Shown: piece by piece, positions 5,631 through 31,854 of the stretch
Layout of the letters: every line of letters begins with the position of its first letter
Position numbering within the stretch: the stretch's first letter is position 1
DNA from: a virus
IMG/VR virus record: IMGVR_UViG_3300034051_000058
Coordinates: 1-31,854 of that record
DNA length: 31,854 nt
Reading direction: 5' to 3' (one strand)
Notes under the pieces: model-generated
Seen by the model: the letters and a program-made list of their open reading frames with translations, nothing else
Database searches by the model: none
Told to the model about the DNA's origin: nothing
Program-made: the position numbers and the translations under genes

Positions 5631-5986
5631 TAATCGTAAATTGTGTTTGTTACTACTCCAGCTACTACCATTCTGCCCTCTTCTACTACATTTAAACCAG
5701 TATAGTAATCTATATTTTGGTCTACAATGACGATAGGGTCGGCAGATTCGTAAACAGTATAGGTATATTGTCCAAGAATAAAGGTCGCATCAACTCCCTC
5801 CCTTAACTCAAACAAATTGTATCTTTCTTTATAGTCTGAAGTATCTACTCCTACCCATTGGAAGCCTTGTGAACTTTTATTAAATTCATTTTGGAATAAA
5901 AATAAGTAGGTTGGATTCGAAATAGTTGAACTCTCAGTAAGCGTGAGAACAAAAGTATTTCTAAAATCTTTTTCTAAGTATATCAT
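5630..5986 (-). CDS. Unknown structural-type protein, 118 aa, heading the portal operon
   Basis: A beta-rich, acidic 118-aa protein (MIYLEKDFRNTFVLTLTE...) of a kind I associate with small head or head-tail proteins of Bacteroidota phages. It is the first gene of the unit portal-adaptor-lysis: the terminator at 6240-6274 lies upstream, so this unit needs its own minus-strand promoter between 5987 and 6240. Immediately before the ATG is the two-part element AACAA, 13 bases, ACCATTATA, shared with other late genes. Confidence 0.6.
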   Translation of the reverse strand: MIYLEKDFRNTFVLTLTESSTISNPTYLFLFQNEFNKSSQGFQWVGVDTSDYKERYNLFELREGVDATFILGQYTYTVYESADPIVIVDQNIDYYTGLNVVEEGRMVVAGVVTNTIYD

Positions 5987-5990
5987 ATAT

Positions 5991-6017
5991 TATAATGGTC
6001 TTTAATTACGATTTGTT
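5991..6017 (-). promoter_or_regulatory. Late two-part element at the head of the portal operon
   Basis: Minus strand: AACAA (6017-6013), 13 bases, ACCATTATA (5999-5991), ATAT, then ATG. The same design with the same spacing to the start codon occurs at 15478 and 19579, with a 12-base spacer at 8749 and a shifted start at 21923. Because a terminator lies upstream, this short gap must contain whatever starts transcription of the portal operon. It overlaps the -33 box of the plus-strand promoter at 6012-6041. Confidence 0.5.
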
Positions 6018-6041
6018 ATAAAACAATCTTTTATATATTTG
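6012..6041 (+). promoter_or_regulatory. Bacteroidota-type promoter for the plus-strand 65-aa gene
   Basis: TTTG (6012-6015), 18 bases, TATATTTG (6034-6041): an almost ideal Bacteroidota vegetative promoter. The ATG at 6046 lies only four bases after the box, so the message would be leaderless or nearly so, unless a later start is used. Confidence 0.7.
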
Positions 6042-6045
6042 TCTT

Positions 6046-6243
6046 ATGGTAGATTACAAGCAAACAAGAAAGATTCTAAATGATATGTTAGAAGCCTCAC
6101 CTAAAAGAATGAGAGATTATGTATTTGTAATGAGTACCGATTTTGAATATCCGCATAAAACATTCAAAAGAATCAAAGTCATAAAGATGATTTTATGTCC
6201 TAAAGAAAAAATTTACTATTGTCCTAATGTTATGTGGAAATAA
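6046..6243 (+). CDS. Plus-strand 65-aa gene inserted in the late block (moron-like)
   Basis: A basic 65-aa protein (MVDYKQTRKILNDML... to NVMWK) with no recognised domain; the C-terminal part has two Cys (CPKEKIYYCP), which could bind metal but are too few for a clear finger. It is alone on the plus strand between the tail tube and portal genes, with its own good promoter and a convergent terminator just past its end. A self-contained cassette of opposite orientation inside a structural operon is the usual form of a moron (accessory gene). Possible later starts: M14 or M22. Confidence 0.6.
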   Translation: MVDYKQTRKILNDMLEASPKRMRDYVFVMSTDFEYPHKTFKRIKVIKMILCPKEKIYYCPNVMWK

Positions 6244-6274
6244 AACAAAAAACCCCCACTAATTAAAGCGAGGG
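6240..6274 (-). terminator. Terminator after the tail tube gene
   Basis: Minus strand: CCCTCGCT (6274-6267), loop TTAATT, AGTGGGGG (6260-6253), with all eight positions pairing if G-T wobbles are allowed, followed by TTTTTTGTTTT. It ends the protease-capsid-tube unit and overlaps the 3' end of the plus-strand gene at 6046-6243. Confidence 0.8.
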
Positions 6275-6295
6275 TGAGGATAGCAAAGTTTACTT

Positions 6296-6805
6296 TTAAA
6301 CTAGTAAAGCTGCAATAATAGTAGGGTCAACTTCGTAAGCTAAATTCTCTGATTCAGCAACGATAGTAATACTGTACTTTGAGCCATCTGCTTTAGCAGT
6401 TCCTGAGCCTTCAGCTACCGCAGTTACTTGTGCATTCGGGAAATACCAATATTTACCGTTTGCATCTAAAACGATAATAGCAAGGTCTCTTTGTCCTTCT
6501 CCTAAAATCTTGATAGAACGAGACTTCGCTGCTTCTCTACGGTGAAACATTAAAGTAATCGTAGCAGTTACAAATGAAGAGCCATTGATTAAATCATTTG
6601 CTTGGTCTTCAACATAGTTACCCGTATTGCGTTTAAATTCAAAAGGAATGAAAGGGTCTCCCGCAGTAATTGCAGTTATTTCCCAATTAGGTTCGTCAAC
6701 CGTAATTGAAGTAACTTCGCTTTGGTCATTTATGTAAACTGTTTGGATGCCTCCGATGTTGTTATCGCATCCTTTTGTGATTGTTGTGATTGTATTACAA
6801 GGCAT
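6296..6805 (-). CDS. Major tail tube protein (probable)
   Basis: A 169-aa beta-rich protein with a size and strand pattern typical of phage tail tube proteins: N-terminal MPCNTITTITKGCDNNIGG, a central FKRNTGNYVEDQAND loop and a C-terminal ADGSKYSITIVAES strand resembling the GKEYTV-type hairpins of the fold. It lies directly after the major capsid gene and is enclosed by terminators on both sides, consistent with separately tuned high expression. A second capsid decoration protein is the main alternative. Confidence 0.6.
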   Translation of the reverse strand: MPCNTITTITKGCDNNIGGIQTVYINDQSEVTSITVDEPNWEITAITAGDPFIPFEFKRNTGNYVEDQANDLINGSSFVTATITLMFHRREAAKSRSIKILGEGQRDLAIIVLDANGKYWYFPNAQVTAVAEGSGTAKADGSKYSITIVAESENLAYEVDPTIIAALLV

Positions 6806-6820
6806 AATTTTTATGTATTA

Positions 6821-6852
6821 AAAAAGGGTAGGCGAATCCACCCACCCTTTTT
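6821..6852. terminator. Strong hairpin between capsid and tail tube genes (bidirectional)
   Basis: Long inverted repeat with A-run on the left and T-run on the right: AAAAAGGGT (6821-6829) pairs with ACCCTTTTT (6844-6852), extended inside by GG/CC. On the minus strand it forms a terminator after the major capsid gene; read-through would supply the tail tube gene, since no promoter is evident between them. Confidence 0.75.
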
Positions 6853-8753: not shown

Positions 8754-8779
8754 TATAATGGTATACATTTTTTTTTGTT
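8754..8779 (-). promoter_or_regulatory. Late two-part element before the protease/capsid unit
   Basis: Minus strand: AACAA (8779-8775), 12 bases, ACCATTATA (8762-8754), AAGT, ATG at 8749. The gene upstream is divergent, so the 60-base gap 8750-8809 (or the first part of the divergent gene) must hold the minus-strand promoter of the capsid genes. The element is the only shared signal seen there. Confidence 0.5.
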
Positions 8780-15482: not shown

Positions 15483-15511
15483 TATAATGGTAATTTTTTA
15501 ATTAGTGTTTT
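15483..15511 (-). promoter_or_regulatory. Late two-part element before the tape measure gene
   Basis: Minus strand: AAAACACTAAT (15511-15501), then ACCATTATA (15491-15483), AGAT, ATG at 15478. AACAC to ACCATT spacing is 13 bases. It fills the 38-base gap after the upstream tail protein. Confidence 0.55.
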
Positions 15512-19583: not shown

Positions 19584-19612
19584 TATAATGGTGTTTATTT
19601 CATTCGTGTTTT
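19584..19612 (-). promoter_or_regulatory. Late two-part element after the terminase gene
   Basis: Minus strand: AAAACACGAAT (19612-19602), then ACCATTATA (19592-19584), GAAT, ATG at 19579. AACAC to ACCATT spacing is 13 bases. The AAAACACGAAT half starts inside the TAA of the large terminase gene. Confidence 0.55.
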
Positions 19613-20762: not shown

Positions 20763-21159
20763 TTACAATAGTTACTTTGATTTCGTTTATCTTTTCACCT
20801 TGACTTGTAACGTCAGTTTTCTCAGTTAACGAATTTAATCTTTGTGTGATTGATGGATTGAATTGCCCAACCATACCCCCCTCGATTTGGTCTTGACGAA
20901 TGATTCTCTTTATGCGTGAGCAGATAGTCAGATATTCTTTATACGCATTATCTTGATTATTGAAATATTGGTGAACGCATCCTATTTTCTCCTCGCAGTA
21001 ATTCTCAAAGCCTTCCATTGTATACGGAGGAATGTGAAACTCTGACTTCACTCCCGTTGCGGTAGCCTTTTGTATCTCTCTTGGTTTTAAGCTACTCTTG
21101 TACTCTTCGAATAGTTGATATAATTTCTCTGGTGTTTCTATGTATTTATGTTTTGCCAT
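20743..21159 (-). CDS. terS: Terminase small subunit, gp3-package-like
   Basis: A 138-aa protein starting MAKHKYIETPEKLYQLFEEY, with IPPYTMEGFENYCEEKIG and a long helix EYLTICSRIKRIIRQDQIEGG, matching the gp3-type DNA-packaging family of small terminases (DNA recognition, ring-forming). Its place directly before terL confirms the role. The start is preceded by AAAACACGAATC and overlaps no gene; the preceding gene ends 14 bases upstream. Confidence 0.8.
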   Translation of the reverse strand: MAKHKYIETPEKLYQLFEEYKSSLKPREIQKATATGVKSEFHIPPYTMEGFENYCEEKIGCVHQYFNNQDNAYKEYLTICSRIKRIIRQDQIEGGMVGQFNPSITQRLNSLTEKTDVTSQGEKINEIKVTIVSGNQGN

Positions 21160-21784: not shown

Positions 21785-21923
21785 ATTCGTTTGTGATTAA
21801 AAACATTAAATAGCTAAAAATAGTCGCAGCTATAAATTTATTTTGGTATTCGTGGCTATTCCAAATCATTACGCTCATTCCAATTGCTAAAATAAACGTT
21901 ATTAGTGCTATCCATCTACTCAT
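21759..21923 (-). CDS. Small two-segment membrane protein, 54 aa
   Basis: ATG at 21923, inside the last codons of the sigma-like gene. Reads MSRWIALITFILAIGMSVMIW, then a short loop and a second hydrophobic segment (IAATIFSYLMFLI), then a charged tail ending EDKR. Two membrane spans and small size could be a second holin or an early membrane effector. It overlaps the next gene by 26 bases. Supported by the shared AACAC-N13-ACCATT element before it. Confidence 0.5.
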   Translation of the reverse strand: MSRWIALITFILAIGMSVMIWNSHEYQNKFIAATIFSYLMFLITNEYEKNEDKR

Positions 21924-22452
21924 AATGGTCTTTTTTTAGTTCGTGTTTTAATTGTCGAAGGTCATTCTTCATTTCAGTAATCATTGCATGGGCAGTAAAT
22001 ACCGAAATATTGAAATGTTCTGCTATGCTTCGGGTAGTATTATATCCTTTATCGTGATAAGTCTCAAAGAAAATTAACTTAATTCTATCGTCTACGGTAT
22101 TACGATATATTTCAATGACTGATTTCTGCTCTTGATAGTTCAACTCAAAAAGAATCTTGTCTTTTATTTCGTCTTCAGCTTCTTCAATCGGAAATTCATT
22201 CTCTACGCTATTTACTATCTCTATTTTGCTTTCAGTATCTCGGAATAGTAACTCGCATTTGATGAAATGAAAGAGAAAATCTTTAACATTTCCGTATTTA
22301 AACTTTGATTCGTTTTTTAGACAATTTAGATAAGCGTTTGATATTACAGTGTCGGCTTCAATTCGTAGATTGATACGATTCAATAGGTACATCGTGTATT
22401 TCTTTACATCAATGTAGTTTGTTTGTAGGTATTTATCTAGTAAGTCCTTCAT
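21916..22452 (-). CDS. Sigma-factor-like regulator, 178 aa (candidate late activator)
   Basis: A 178-aa helical protein built like a divergent ECF sigma factor: residues about 15-60 resemble region 2 (LLNRINLRIEADTVISNAYLNCLK, then a FKYGNVKDFLFHFIK helix), an acidic linker at about 80-100, and residues 127-170 resemble region 4 with a helix-turn-helix (TTRSIAEHFNISVFTAHAMITEM). It lies just before the terminase and late genes, where phage late activators often sit. It is weakly conserved, so a plain HTH regulator is an alternative. It overlaps the upstream gene by 20 bases. Confidence 0.45.
   Translation of the reverse strand: MKDLLDKYLQTNYIDVKKYTMYLLNRINLRIEADTVISNAYLNCLKNESKFKYGNVKDFLFHFIKCELLFRDTESKIEIVNSVENEFPIEEAEDEIKDKILFELNYQEQKSVIEIYRNTVDDRIKLIFFETYHDKGYNTTRSIAEHFNISVFTAHAMITEMKNDLRQLKHELKKDHYE
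21921..21947 (-). promoter_or_regulatory. Two-part element inside the end of the sigma-like gene
   Basis: Minus strand: AACAC (21947-21943), 13 bases, ACCATTATG (21929-21921), where the ATG is itself the start codon of the 54-aa membrane protein. The element forms coding sequence here and still keeps the 13-base spacing seen elsewhere. Confidence 0.5.
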
Positions 22453-22866: not shown

Positions 22867-22888
22867 GACGTTTTTTTCGTCAAATATA
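22866..22888 (-). promoter_or_regulatory. Promoter box with palindrome before the 82-aa membrane protein
   Basis: Minus strand TATATTTG (22888-22881) followed immediately by the perfect inverted repeat TGACG, seven A, CGTCA (22882-22866), which touches the ATG at 22866. A weak TTG lies at 22906-22904 (15-base spacer). The palindrome sits where transcription starts, so it could be an operator or an mRNA hairpin covering the start codon. Confidence 0.5.
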
Positions 22889-26704: not shown

Positions 26705-27136
26705 TTATTTGTTACTATTTTTTTTCGGCTTGGACATTTTTCTTTTTGTTTCTTCAGAATGTTTTTTACCAAGCCTTGATAAACCTATTTTGTTTTTTGT
26801 TTCTTGAGAAACTTTAAAATTTAATACTTCAAATTTATGAATTACATTTTCACTTTGAGTACACCATTCTAAATTATCTACTCTATTATCATTTTTAATT
26901 CCATTAATATGATTAATTATAGGTTTATTATTTTCATTTTCTACAAAAGCAAAACCAACTAATCTATGAATTAAACAACTTTTACTAATGTTATTTTTAT
27001 ATAAAACAACTCTAACATATCCTTTATTGTGTCTATGTTTTAATTGAATGTTGTTTTTTAAACTAATTACATTACCTAAATTTGACACTTCATATAGTCC
27101 TTCATAGCCGACTACTGGCATCCATACTTCTTGCAT
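26705..27136 (-). CDS. HNH homing endonuclease (NUMOD4-HNH-NUMOD3)
   Basis: Start set at ATG 27136 (MQEVWMPVVGYEGLYEVSN), giving 143 aa; a start at 27193 would add 19 residues outside the NUMOD4 fold. NUMOD4 motif WMPVVGYEGLYEVSNLGNV, HNH core HRLVGFAF...INHINGIKNDNRVDNLEWCT, and a NUMOD3 DNA-contact stretch (NKIGLSRLGKKHSEETKRK). A free-standing homing nuclease between the exonuclease and ssDNA-binding genes, AT-richer than its neighbours. No interrupted gene or intron is evident nearby. Confidence 0.85.
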   Translation of the reverse strand: MQEVWMPVVGYEGLYEVSNLGNVISLKNNIQLKHRHNKGYVRVVLYKNNISKSCLIHRLVGFAFVENENNKPIINHINGIKNDNRVDNLEWCTQSENVIHKFEVLNFKVSQETKNKIGLSRLGKKHSEETKRKMSKPKKNSNK

Positions 27137-27168
27137 TTTTAAACAGTTAAATAACGCAGTTAAAAAGA

Positions 27169-27230
27169 AACGTGGAAGGTGTAACTGCTTCACTTTTCAA
27201 ACGGCTAATTACTTCCGTTCTATCCACGTT
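27169..27230. repeat. Nested inverted repeats between exonuclease and HNH genes
   Basis: AACGTGGA (27169-27176) pairs with TCCACGTT (27223-27230), and inside it AACGG (27200-27204) pairs with CCGTT (27215-27219). On the minus strand the outer stem is followed by TCTTTTT, so the structure could act as a terminator for the YqaJ exonuclease gene, or as a structured 5' leader of the HNH gene. Confidence 0.5.
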
Positions 27231-27955: not shown

Positions 27956-28246
27956 TTATAATAAATTTTTATTTAATATTGGTTTAAAATATTTAATTAA
28001 ACTTTTTTCTACTTTATTAATATAAGTCCAATTATAACTATCTAATTCATAACATAAAGCATAATCATAATCTTTTGAATATCTATGTTGATTTAATCTT
28101 GATAATATATTTGTACTTTGACCTATGTAAATGCATTGATTGTTTTTCATTAAAAAATAGATTCCACTTTTACGAAAATATTTCCAATCTGAACTATGAT
28201 ATAAAGGTTTTTTTTGAATCCATCTTTTGGTAAAATCAAATTCCAT
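27956..28246 (-). CDS. GIY-YIG endonuclease, 96 aa
   Basis: GIY (28-30) and YIG (40-42) in GIYFLMKNNQCIYIGQS, with conserved R50 in NILSRLNQH and E80 in NKVEKSLI; a minimal single-domain nuclease. Its ATG overlaps the ERF stop (TAATG), so it is translated in step with ERF. Markedly AT-rich compared with ERF. A mobile nuclease inserted precisely between ERF and YqaJ is likely; no DNA-binding add-on domain is seen. Confidence 0.85.
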   Translation of the reverse strand: MEFDFTKRWIQKKPLYHSSDWKYFRKSGIYFLMKNNQCIYIGQSTNILSRLNQHRYSKDYDYALCYELDSYNWTYINKVEKSLIKYFKPILNKNLL

Positions 28247-29472: not shown

Positions 29473-29701
29473 CTTCTTTAAAATTTTCGTCACACCATTT
29501 ACGGAATGACTGTTGTATTTTAATTTGTTGTTCCATTGCTTCAATGTCTGCGCTATCTACCATGTGAGAATCGAATGAGCGTATTGCATTTATTAAAAGA
29601 TTACGTTTCATTTTACTTACTCGTTGCATTGGTATATCTTCAAGGAAATCTGCTAAAGTTGGCAGCACTTGGATAGCTAGTATTTTTTCGTTTGTTGTCA
29701 T
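29462..29701 (-). CDS. Small unknown protein, 79 aa (complete copy)
   Basis: A helical 79-aa protein (MTTNEKILAIQVLPTLADFL; RNLLINAIRSFDSHM; QSFRKWCDENFKEDGE). The 5' part is also present at 1-71 with identical sequence, where the window edge cuts it. ATG overlaps the stop of 29698-29907. Function unknown. Confidence 0.65.
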   Translation of the reverse strand: MTTNEKILAIQVLPTLADFLEDIPMQRVSKMKRNLLINAIRSFDSHMVDSADIEAMEQQIKIQQSFRKWCDENFKEDGE

Positions 29702-29907
29702 AATGCTCTTATTTCTCGTTTAACATCAAACCAATAAATTGCTAGTTCGTGATTTTGTAGTTTAACCATTTCTATTCGAACATTCTCGGCAACATATAAC
29801 GCAGCTTGTTTAGCTACTGCATTAATTAACGCTTCAGTTCCACCTAATAAAGAAACGTCATATCTTGTAAATTCGTAAATGCTAAATGCTTTTTCTTTTG
29901 TTGTCAT
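29698..29907 (-). CDS. Small unknown early protein, 69 aa (allele B)
   Basis: Mosaic relative of 68-286: its last 25 or so residues are identical (RIEMVKLQNHELAIYWFD), while the first 40 (MTTKEKAFSIYEFTRYDVSL) are largely unrelated. It starts at ATG 29907, overlapping the stop of the 56-aa gene. Function unknown. Confidence 0.7.
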   Translation of the reverse strand: MTTKEKAFSIYEFTRYDVSLLGGTEALINAVAKQAALYVAENVRIEMVKLQNHELAIYWFDVKREIRAL

Positions 29908-30074
29908 TTGTTCTCGTTTAATTTGATTCGTCTTAACTCGTTAACTAACTCTACATTGTATGTAGTAAAAAATTGCTTTCGATGAGCATCGTTAACTCCC
30001 ATTGGAGGAAAATAAGTATTTTCTGCCTTTGTCGGCTTTACATTTTTGTTCAAAAAGTTCTTAATTAGCTGCAT
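29904..30074 (-). CDS. Small unknown basic protein, 56 aa (allele B)
   Basis: Homologue of 283-453 with the same length and the conserved core PPMGVNDAHRKQ; changes include HFTTYNLEL to FFTTYNVEL. Overlaps the VDIDV gene by 14 bases and the next ATG by four. Confidence 0.7.
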   Translation of the reverse strand: MQLIKNFLNKNVKPTKAENTYFPPMGVNDAHRKQFFTTYNVELVNELRRIKLNENK

Positions 30075-30258
30075 GATGTTTTAGTTTTTCGTAAATTAAT
30101 AATTCAACTGTTTCAATATATTTATCTAGTAAAGAAAATACGTCTTGTTTTCCTATTTCTACTTCAAGAATATCAATGTAGTTTACATCGTCTTCTATTA
30201 TTTCGTAGGTAACATCTATGTCTACTCCTTCAATTGTTACTGTTGTTTCGTGTTTCAT
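30061..30258 (-). CDS. Small acidic VDIDV-family protein, 65 aa (allele B)
   Basis: Nearly identical to 440-637 (changes only near the start and in the last 15 residues). It overlaps by four bases the second family member upstream (30255-30440), forming a tandem pair found only in this allele. Confidence 0.72.
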   Translation of the reverse strand: MKHETTVTIEGVDIDVTYEIIEDDVNYIDILEVEIGKQDVFSLLDKYIETVELLIYEKLKHHAAN

Positions 30259-30440
30259 GATTGTAATTGTGTTAAAGTTAATGTTTCTATTTCTTGGTAG
30301 CGTTCATCTAATAAATGACTTACATCTATACCAGCTATTAATAATTCAGATATTTCAATGCATCCTATATCTTTTGGATTCCATGTACCTATAACGTCAA
30401 TATCAACGTCATCTAGTTGTATTATTATTTCGTATCTCAT
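30255..30440 (-). CDS. Second VDIDV-family protein, 61 aa, allele B only
   Basis: Shares with its neighbour the order VDIDV, I-EISE-LI, DVSHLLD, EIETL, at low identity elsewhere, so it is a diverged tandem paralogue. It contains the WNPKDIG stretch seen in longer family members. Absent in allele A, where the upstream 46-aa gene joins directly to the single family copy. Function unknown. Confidence 0.65.
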   Translation of the reverse strand: MRYEIIIQLDDVDIDVIGTWNPKDIGCIEISELLIAGIDVSHLLDERYQEIETLTLTQLQS

Positions 30441-30577
30441 TGTTCGTTTTGTTTAAGCGTAAAATAATAGTTTTCTGCAACATCAATTGCTAAAGTGATT
30501 TGATTAGCTGAAATCCAATCGCCTTTCTCAAGATAAAATTCTTTGATTAATTCTAGTTGTTTAATTGTTTCGTTCAT
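30437..30577 (-). CDS. Small unknown protein, 46 aa (allele B)
   Basis: Homologue of 634-774 (MNETIKQLELIKEFYLEKGD, ending LKQNEQ). The TGA overlaps the ATG of the paralogue at 30440, so the same gene end has been joined to different followers in the two alleles. Confidence 0.72.
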   Translation of the reverse strand: MNETIKQLELIKEFYLEKGDWISANQITLAIDVAENYYFTLKQNEQ

Positions 30578-30591
30578 GTTTTTAAGATTTA

Positions 30592-30732
30592 TTATTTATT
30601 ATTAAATTTATCACACATTGCTATAAATTTTTTTCTTGGTAGTTTTTTAAATTGCTCAACTGTCAAATTATTTGCTGTTGCAATTTTTATCATTTTTAAA
30701 TCTAATTCTTTTATTGTACTCATGTTTTTCAT
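30592..30732 (-). CDS. Small basic helical protein, 46 aa, allele B only
   Basis: Reads MKNMSTIKELDLKMIKIA, then NNLTVEQFKKLPRKKF and ends DKFNNK; an alternative start is at MSTI (30723). First gene after the B promoter. It has no relation to the two genes at the same place in A. LTVEQFKKLPRKKF suggests a small helical domain, perhaps DNA- or protein-binding; unknown. Confidence 0.55.
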   Translation of the reverse strand: MKNMSTIKELDLKMIKIATANNLTVEQFKKLPRKKFIAMCDKFNNK

Positions 30733-30756
30733 AATGTTTTGTTTAATTGATATAGA

Positions 30757-30786
30757 CAAATATAAATATAATGTTTAAAACTACAA
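30757..30786 (-). promoter_or_regulatory. Promoter of the leftward early operon (allele B)
   Basis: Minus strand TTG (30786-30784), 19 bases, TATATTTG (30764-30757). Equivalent in place to 1318-1346 but with a different box and spacer. The sequence upstream (toward the repeats) is shared with A. Confidence 0.7.
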
Positions 30787-30863
30787 TACTTTTTAACAAT
30801 TATTTTTCATTTATTTTTAGTTTCTCAATGGTTTCAATACTTTCAGCGCATAAAAAAAATATT

Positions 30864-30912
30864 TAATTTAAGGTTATAGCTTTAAAATCTTGAAATAATT
30901 TAAGGTTATAGC
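30864..30912. repeat. Pair of 17-bp direct repeats (allele B)
   Basis: TAATTTAAGGTTATAGC at 30864-30880 and 30896-30912, same 32-base period as in allele A, with the flanking DNA partly changed. Confidence 0.65.
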
Positions 30913-30914
30913 AT

Positions 30915-30940
30915 AAAAAAAGGAGATATTTCTACCTCCT
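30915..30940 (-). terminator. Rho-independent terminator (allele B)
   Basis: Minus strand AGGAG (30940-30936), loop, CTCCT (30925-30921), then a T-run (30920-30915). Stem kept and loop changed relative to 1481-1500. A TATATTTG box at 30986-30979 precedes it, as in A, giving the same candidate short RNA. Confidence 0.65.
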
Positions 30941-30986
30941 TTAACCTAAACATGAAAAACAAAACTTGTTAACTGCTGCAAATATA
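30915..30986 (-). ncRNA. Candidate ~60-nt small RNA (allele B counterpart)
   Basis: Same arrangement as 1474-1547: TATATTTG box, a non-coding block of about 30 bases nearly unchanged, then the terminator. The same caution applies: it may just be the 3' end of the exonuclease message. Confidence 0.3.
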
Positions 30987-31063
30987 GTAAAATACTCTTT
31001 ACAAAATCATATGTTTTTGCATATAATATTTTACATTATGGCTTTTTTATATGTAATTGCATA

Positions 31064-31837
31064 TTATTTTATGTTATTCTTCATCTTCCATTGTAACCAA
31101 TCAATGAAAGTTTTGTTGTTTATTTTATACGAACTATTCCCACATTCACAACTCATATAATGTTGGATTGTTCCCGCTGCTGTTGTATATGTTTTACGCA
31201 TTCTTATATTGTAGCTTCCACATTCAGGGCATTCAAACTTTTCACCGCCTCTTAATACTGCATAGTTTACTTTCTTTTTTGTGTATGGCTGTAGTTTTTC
31301 AAATACTTTTTCTAAAACAATTACATCCATGTCGCAATATTCAACCATTCTACTCATGGCTTCAGCATCTTTGTCGAATATAATACTTTTCCACATATCC
31401 ATTCCTTCATGTTTCAACTTTGCGCCAACACCTAAAAACTTTGCGATGTAGTCCAACTTATTACTATTAAAATTAAACTGCGATTTAGCGTGTTTAAGCG
31501 TATCAATTGACTGATACTGCGGAAACATCTCTATACCATGAAATAAACATCTTGTTCGAAGCCATTTAATATCGAATCTATCTCCATTGTGTGCAATAAC
31601 TTCGTCGGCTTTGTTTAGTTGTTTGATGAATGCTTTAAGTAGTTTCTTGTCGCATTGATTTTCATCCCATTGTAAATGGTGTACTTCGTCTTTCCCTTCC
31701 CATTTCCAACTAACGCAAATAATTGCCCTTTCTTTAATTATATCGTCAGGCTGAATAGTCAGGTTGTAACCACTTCGCCAAAAGATACCGATATTAAATG
31801 AGGTCTCAATATCGAAAAATAATCTTTTTCTTATCAT
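31064..31837 (-). CDS. DEDDy exonuclease-like protein with zinc ribbon (allele B)
   Basis: The 257-aa allele B version of 1587-2360, with the same catalytic residues and the zinc-ribbon cysteines intact. Five residue differences fall between 161 and 186 (for example KIAPYS to KLQPYT), on the stretch around Exo III, while silent differences occur along the gene until the exact identity resumes at 31728. The start is preceded by a terminator cut by the window edge. Confidence 0.85.
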   Translation of the reverse strand: MIRKRLFFDIETSFNIGIFWRSGYNLTIQPDDIIKERAIICVSWKWEGKDEVHHLQWDENQCDKKLLKAFIKQLNKADEVIAHNGDRFDIKWLRTRCLFHGIEMFPQYQSIDTLKHAKSQFNFNSNKLDYIAKFLGVGAKLKHEGMDMWKSIIFDKDAEAMSRMVEYCDMDVIVLEKVFEKLQPYTKKKVNYAVLRGGEKFECPECGSYNIRMRKTYTTAAGTIQHYMSCECGNSSYKINNKTFIDWLQWKMKNNIK

Positions 31838-31854
31838 TAGGTATAATTAAAAAG

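Follow-up and report, generated by a model that had tools for sequence, protein, structure and literature searches.

What is the two-part sequence that recurs a few bases ahead of the start codons of several virion genes in this phage: a promoter, a signal to the ribosome, or a binding site for some other regulator? The window, by which we mean the whole stretch of DNA analysed, comprises 31,854 bases with 33.6% G+C and corresponds to a single IMG/VR virus record. Its genes, which lie mostly on the minus strand, include tail genes and those for a terminase, a portal, an S78-type head protease and a capsid-like structural protein. The phages that bear the element are uncultivated tailed phages whose host is probably Flavobacterium. 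Because the terminase had no relative in the bacterial genomes searched, and the sigma-like and capsid proteins had no match among isolated phages, this assignment is based only on AT-richness, host-type TAnnTTTG boxes and distant phage relatives.

The two-box element and its conservation

The sequence ACCATTAT occurs five times in the 31,854 bases, always on the minus strand, where a mean of 1.68 occurrences would be expected by chance. At all five sites it follows AACAM after 12–13 bases, an arrangement that did not appear in any of 100 shuffles of the window. The first-pass annotation had listed these five minus-strand copies with spacers of 13, 13, 12, 13 and 13 bases, and a gap of four bases between the end of ACCATTATA and the ATG at genes 19579, 15478, 8749 and 5986; both descriptions were correct. 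It had also placed all five copies at gene starts; four are in register with the ATG (Table 1), and at 21923 the ATG overlaps the second box (ACCATT-ATG). A sequence resembling the first box, AAAACACGAA, lies just before the ATGs at 21159, 21503 and 24150 without a second box, and may be a separate A-rich leader motif.

Table 1. Predicted late promoters and associated features of the window.
Feature	Position	Strand	Remarks
Two-box late promoter (predicted), gene 19579	19585..19610	-	AACACGAATGAAATAAACACCATTAT; predicted start ~19579 (A of ATG); conserved in close relatives
Two-box late promoter (predicted), tape-measure-like gene 15478	15484..15509	-	AACACTAATTAAAAAATTACCATTAT; predicted start ~15478; conserved in close and diverged relatives
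Two-box late promoter (predicted), head protease/capsid unit, gene 8749	8755..8779	-	AACAAAAAAAAATGTATACCATTAT; 12-nt spacer; predicted start ~8749; conserved; divergent gene (8810) upstream
Two-box late promoter (predicted), gene 5986 and portal gene	5992..6017	-	AACAAATCGTAATTAAAGACCATTAT; predicted start ~5986
Fifth copy, inside 3' end of sigma-like gene	21922..21947	-	predicted start ~21916
ECF-type sigma-like protein, 178 aa, proposed element reader	21916..22452	-	profile match, fold, co-occurrence
Host-type TATATTTG box	22881..22888	-	head of operon with sigma-like gene; 14 nt before ATG 22866
Terminator	6252..6275	-	upstream of gene 5986 promoter
65-aa divergent gene	6046..6243	+	between terminator and late promoter in window

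Relatives were gathered by terminase (80 loci) and by portal (80 loci), and those with terminases 92–100% and portals 88–100% identical form what we call the close clade. Here the element stands before the same four genes, and the letters of its spacer vary freely. A strict scan of the close clade returned 65 unique sites, of which 64 lie on the late strand, compared with an average of 2.6 redundant hits in shuffled sequence. Every gene-start copy (51/51) has exactly 5 nt from ACCATTAT to the ATG; the remaining sites comprise 13 copies located where the sigma-like gene ends and a single chance match in antisense orientation. Together, the shuffles of the window and the strict scan in relatives rule out a chance origin. 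Searching related phages for the motif had been suggested as a check on the element, and it does recur before the same genes in dozens of uncultivated relatives.

The consensus of the first box is TTTA(A/T)AACA(A/C) and that of the second is C(C/T)ATTATA. AAC is invariant in 72 aligned 26-nt sites, in whose selection it carried weight, and AACA is invariant in unselected upstream alignments. Over 2.05 Mb, a weight matrix made from the sites found 95 hits on the late strand and 0 on the opposite strand; the 95 include the training sites, and the strand contrast is the informative part.

Conserved DNA boxes alone cannot separate a promoter from an operator, that is, a site for a DNA-binding regulator beside an ordinary host promoter that drives transcription. 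Host-type promoters are found elsewhere in the phage, at genes 22866, 28794, 1281, 8810 and 6046. No TAnnTTTG box in the late orientation lies in the 90 nt that precede each of the four gene starts. The boxes of the element are also non-palindromic and point towards the gene (64/65 sites; 95 to 0 by strand), and the span between them fits −35/−10 spacing. We therefore regard an operator as very improbable.

Distance to the start codon and the predicted site of transcription initiation

The first-pass annotation had weighed a promoter against a translation signal that replaces Shine-Dalgarno pairing, on account of the constant distance to the ATG. That constancy was found within the close clade and breaks down between clades, where the distance ranges from 4 to 18 nt. 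In diverged relatives, the span from AAC to the (C/T)A(T/A)TAT box stays at 25–26 nt, whereas the ATG follows the second box by 4, 5, 6, 7 or 8 nt. A further clade carries a gene for about 90 aa after the terminase; there the terminase stop is immediately followed by the element, and 16–18 nt separate the box from the ATG. In addition, the T at +5 and the A at +6 past the box are kept in 11/11 sites at which the ATG is at +9, these being orthologous copies that are not independent. Because the span is fixed, the ATG distance drifts and the T-A stays at +5/+6, the element behaves as expected of a promoter rather than of a ribosome signal.

In favor of an mRNA signal to the ribosome are the exact 5-nt spacing of the close clade and the lack of Shine-Dalgarno sequences in Bacteroidota (PMC6847099). 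However, such a signal should hold its distance to the ATG, and it is the box span that stays constant. Seven Flavobacterium 16S rRNAs were compared with the complement of ACCATTATA: matching stretches did not exceed 7 nt, and none of them lay near the 3' end. Nor would a translation signal account for another box some 18 nt upstream, for the position immediately downstream of a terminator, or for the preservation of a fifth copy within a coding end, out of register with its ATG. We rejected this reading on the drifting distance and the lack of a convincing 16S complement, and consider it highly unlikely. The reading of the element as a phage-specific promoter of the late (virion) genes is well supported and almost certainly right.

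Where would transcription begin? In F. johnsoniae many start sites fall 4–5 nt after the −7 box (PMC6847099), and, measured from ACCATTATA, this host distance places +1 at the A of the ATG. Transcription is thus predicted to start about 6 nt after the second box, at the A of the ATG at the four sites of the window, and the usual −10 geometry would likewise allow a leader of at most a few nucleotides at these genes. Since the T-A at +5/+6 is kept where the ATG begins at +9, it is probably the boxes, not the ATG, that set the start site. A start at or next to the ATG would also better explain the constant ATG distance of the close clade than a translation signal does. Judged by this geometry, the late mRNAs probably lack a leader or have one of only a few nucleotides. 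Near-leaderless transcripts would not be universal in the wider group, because one clade has 16–18 nt between box and ATG.

Little or no leader would be unusual for this group of bacteria. In F. johnsoniae, leaders exceed 10 nt in 87% of transcripts with a probable promoter (PMC6847099), and in B. thetaiotaomicron 5' UTRs shorter than 10 nt make up only about 3.7% of the total (PMC7366714). The bases next to the start codon differ as well: A at −3, which the host favors, is present at 42% of element genes versus 63% of other genes of these phages, and T at −1 at 83% versus 45%. A broader proposal, in which a Bacteroidota phage family replaces host promoters by ECF-sigma promoters of its own, the start is the AUG, the virion mRNAs are leaderless, and promoter and sigma co-evolve by clade, seems to us evenly balanced between right and wrong. 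If true, it would mean leaderless virion mRNAs in bacteria whose messages otherwise carry leaders and lack Shine-Dalgarno sequences.

The fifth copy differs from the others in its position. Its boxes (21922–21947) are written within the last codons of the sigma-like gene (KHELKKDHYE-stop), and we at first favored a coding coincidence. Among 15 distinct close-clade sequences, however, the two six-codon windows over the boxes show synonymous variation of 0 and 0.02, compared with a gene mean of 0.29, and are the lowest in the entire gene; the leucine codon between the boxes varies. Part of this constraint, but not all of it, is explained by the overlap of the gene's last two codons with the start codon that follows. 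In one relative (locus L045), the sigma-like gene ends earlier and the same element is non-coding, with an ATG 5 nt after the box. The synonymous constraint and this non-coding copy rule out coincidence. As the fifth copy is out of register with the ATG at 21923 and its predicted start lies downstream of that ATG, it probably serves genes further down, the terminase included.

A sigma-like protein as candidate reader

Calling the product of 21916–22452 sigma-like, as the first-pass annotation did, is justified by an ECF-like fold in the structure model and by a full-length profile match that falls below the curated cut-off. The NCBIfam model TIGR02937 (sigma70-ECF) matches residues 4–167 with an E-value of 4.6e-5 and 23.1 bits, below the curated 42.9, and it matches 16/22 relatives. 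For one divergent relative there is a match to a PHROG sigma family (E 1.2e-5). Pfam sigma models did not match the protein, and a PDB sequence search with the sigma alignment found no sigma.

The structure model (mean pLDDT 77, pTM 0.41) has the sigma2-linker-sigma4 helix layout. Its best Foldseek matches in the PDB are mostly ECF sigmas, with probabilities of 0.99–1.00 and a best E-value of 1.6e-3. Whole-chain TM is low against the PDB ECF sigmas because the two domains are placed differently; the sigma4 domain on its own reaches a TM of 0.72 against RpoE region 4, which was solved on its −35 DNA. Among BFVD models, named phage RpoE homologues match at E 4–6e-4.

The gene neighborhood suggests how such a protein could be made ahead of the late genes. 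Its operon appears to begin at gene 22866, and the host-type box found there is also present in many relatives. With this box at the operon head, the polymerase of the host would be able to produce the sigma, which could then open the late genes.

Variation in the second box points to a shared reader. This box is CCATTAT, CTATTAT, CATTAT or CAATAT depending on the lineage, and in genomes with at least two sites all 53/53 pairs agree at position 22 (shuffle mean 35.8, maximum 44), with 50 and 49 concordant pairs at positions 19 and 20, although relatives are not independent of one another, and these figures partly reflect common descent. At the variable positions 3 and 4 of the first box, concordance is not clearly above shuffles. 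That several unlinked sites carry the same change calls for a single trans-acting reader, and the concordance within genomes is as expected if such a reader acts on all of them.

That reader could instead belong to the host. Flavobacteria have ECF sigmas of their own, and the phage sigma is tied to the element by co-occurrence, position and promoter type only; an alternative (ECF) sigma of the host, or host RNA polymerase with some other phage activator, might therefore read the late promoter. Against this, the sigma-like gene is present in 62/63 loci with enough sequence upstream of the terminase, the second box co-varies across the sites of each genome as expected from a changing phage-borne reader, and the sigma-like gene itself retains a copy of the element at its 3' end. 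We consider a host or other reader rather unlikely, and the sigma-like protein is the best candidate and likely the reader.

The fixed box span, the drifting ATG distance, the second-box concordance, the selection on the fifth copy and the ECF-like fold together give good support to the first-pass annotation's proposal of a late promoter, possibly one used by the sigma-like protein. What the sequence shows is the boxes, their spacing, their conservation and concordance, and the sigma-like fold; promoter activity, recognition by this protein, the exact start site and leaderless translation are inferred from these. In the mechanism we propose, the first box acts as a −35 element and the second as a −10 (or −7) element. 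The sigma, made from an operon with a host-type TAnnTTTG promoter, would direct the host's RNA polymerase to at least four late units, namely gene 19579, the tape measure, the head protease with the capsid, and gene 5986 with the portal. The fifth copy, located where the sigma's own gene ends, would feed the genes that follow, terminase among them. As a whole, a late promoter read by a phage ECF-type sigma, with transcription starting at or near the ATG, is in our judgment a likely explanation.

Comparison with known systems and the surrounding sequence

ECF (group IV) sigmas such as E. coli RpoE, B. subtilis SigW and M. tuberculosis SigH resemble the phage protein in their sigma2-linker-sigma4 layout and fold. 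The phage protein differs from them in being very diverged, without a Pfam match, phage-borne, and dedicated, as proposed, to late genes. AAC in the −35 box is a general rule for ECF sigmas, and CGT in the −10 box is a general, though not universal, feature (PMC4153023). The element shares the AAC and a comparable spacing of the two boxes. The CGT motif, in contrast, is absent, and the second box is C(C/T)ATTATA or CAATATA. The primary promoter of Bacteroidota, TTTG/TAnnTTTG, has a similar distance from proximal box to start (4–5 nt in F. johnsoniae), but its letters differ in both boxes (PMC6847099, PMC7366714).

The AR9 late promoter, AACA-N6-TA/G, shares with the element the letters AACA and a fixed-spacing late arrangement; its AACA lies about 10 nt before the start and its reader is a phage multisubunit polymerase (PMC5312081). 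In the present element AACA is about 31 nt before the start with the second box in between. We ruled out an AR9-type promoter because the distances that separate AACA from the second box and from the ATG are wrong for it.

T4 gp55 and SPO1 gp28 are phage-encoded late or middle sigmas; in such systems a sigma expressed from host-type promoters redirects the host polymerase to late genes. The scheme proposed here is the same, but with an ECF-type two-box promoter at the start codon and in a Bacteroidota phage of about 30 kb. SPO1 gp28 is a middle-transcription sigma (PMC3594737). Leaderless phage messages are known from the Thermus phage phiYS40, where they were linked to changes in IF2/IF3 (PMC3594737); in the present phage, which is not known to alter a translation factor, they are predicted from start placement. 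We found no description of a late promoter or late sigma of Flavobacterium-type phages in the open-access literature searched. If our reading is right, late transcription units become predictable in a common group of uncultivated phages, Bacteroidota gain a new sigma/promoter pair, and the phages offer a natural test of how Bacteroidota ribosomes, which work without Shine-Dalgarno pairing, handle leaderless messages.

The first-pass annotation had argued that the sites at 5986 and 8749 must contain a promoter, given what lies upstream. The terminator (6275–6252) and the divergent genes (6046–6243; 8810) are indeed there. The "must" is weakened by gene 6805, where a terminator-like hairpin with a T-run (6805–6847) stands immediately before the ATG, after the capsid-like gene, in the window and in related phages. 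This leaves no room for a promoter at gene 6805, so some read-through of a terminator is needed in this phage; perhaps it steps expression down after the capsid gene.

The 65-aa gene at 6046–6243 has a host-type promoter of its own (TTG-N18-TATATTTG, 6013–6041). It looks like a recent insertion, because in most close relatives it is absent and the T-run of the terminator directly adjoins the element of gene 5986.

The ends of the record (1–2377 and 29631–31854) repeat each other at 86–93% identity and include two near-identical genes for a 257-aa exonuclease. They may be either a diverged duplication or an assembly that wrapped round a circular genome using two strains. Two open reading frames, 26705–27193 (HNH-type) and 27956–28246 (GIY-YIG-type), look endonuclease-like by eye and are possibly homing endonucleases.
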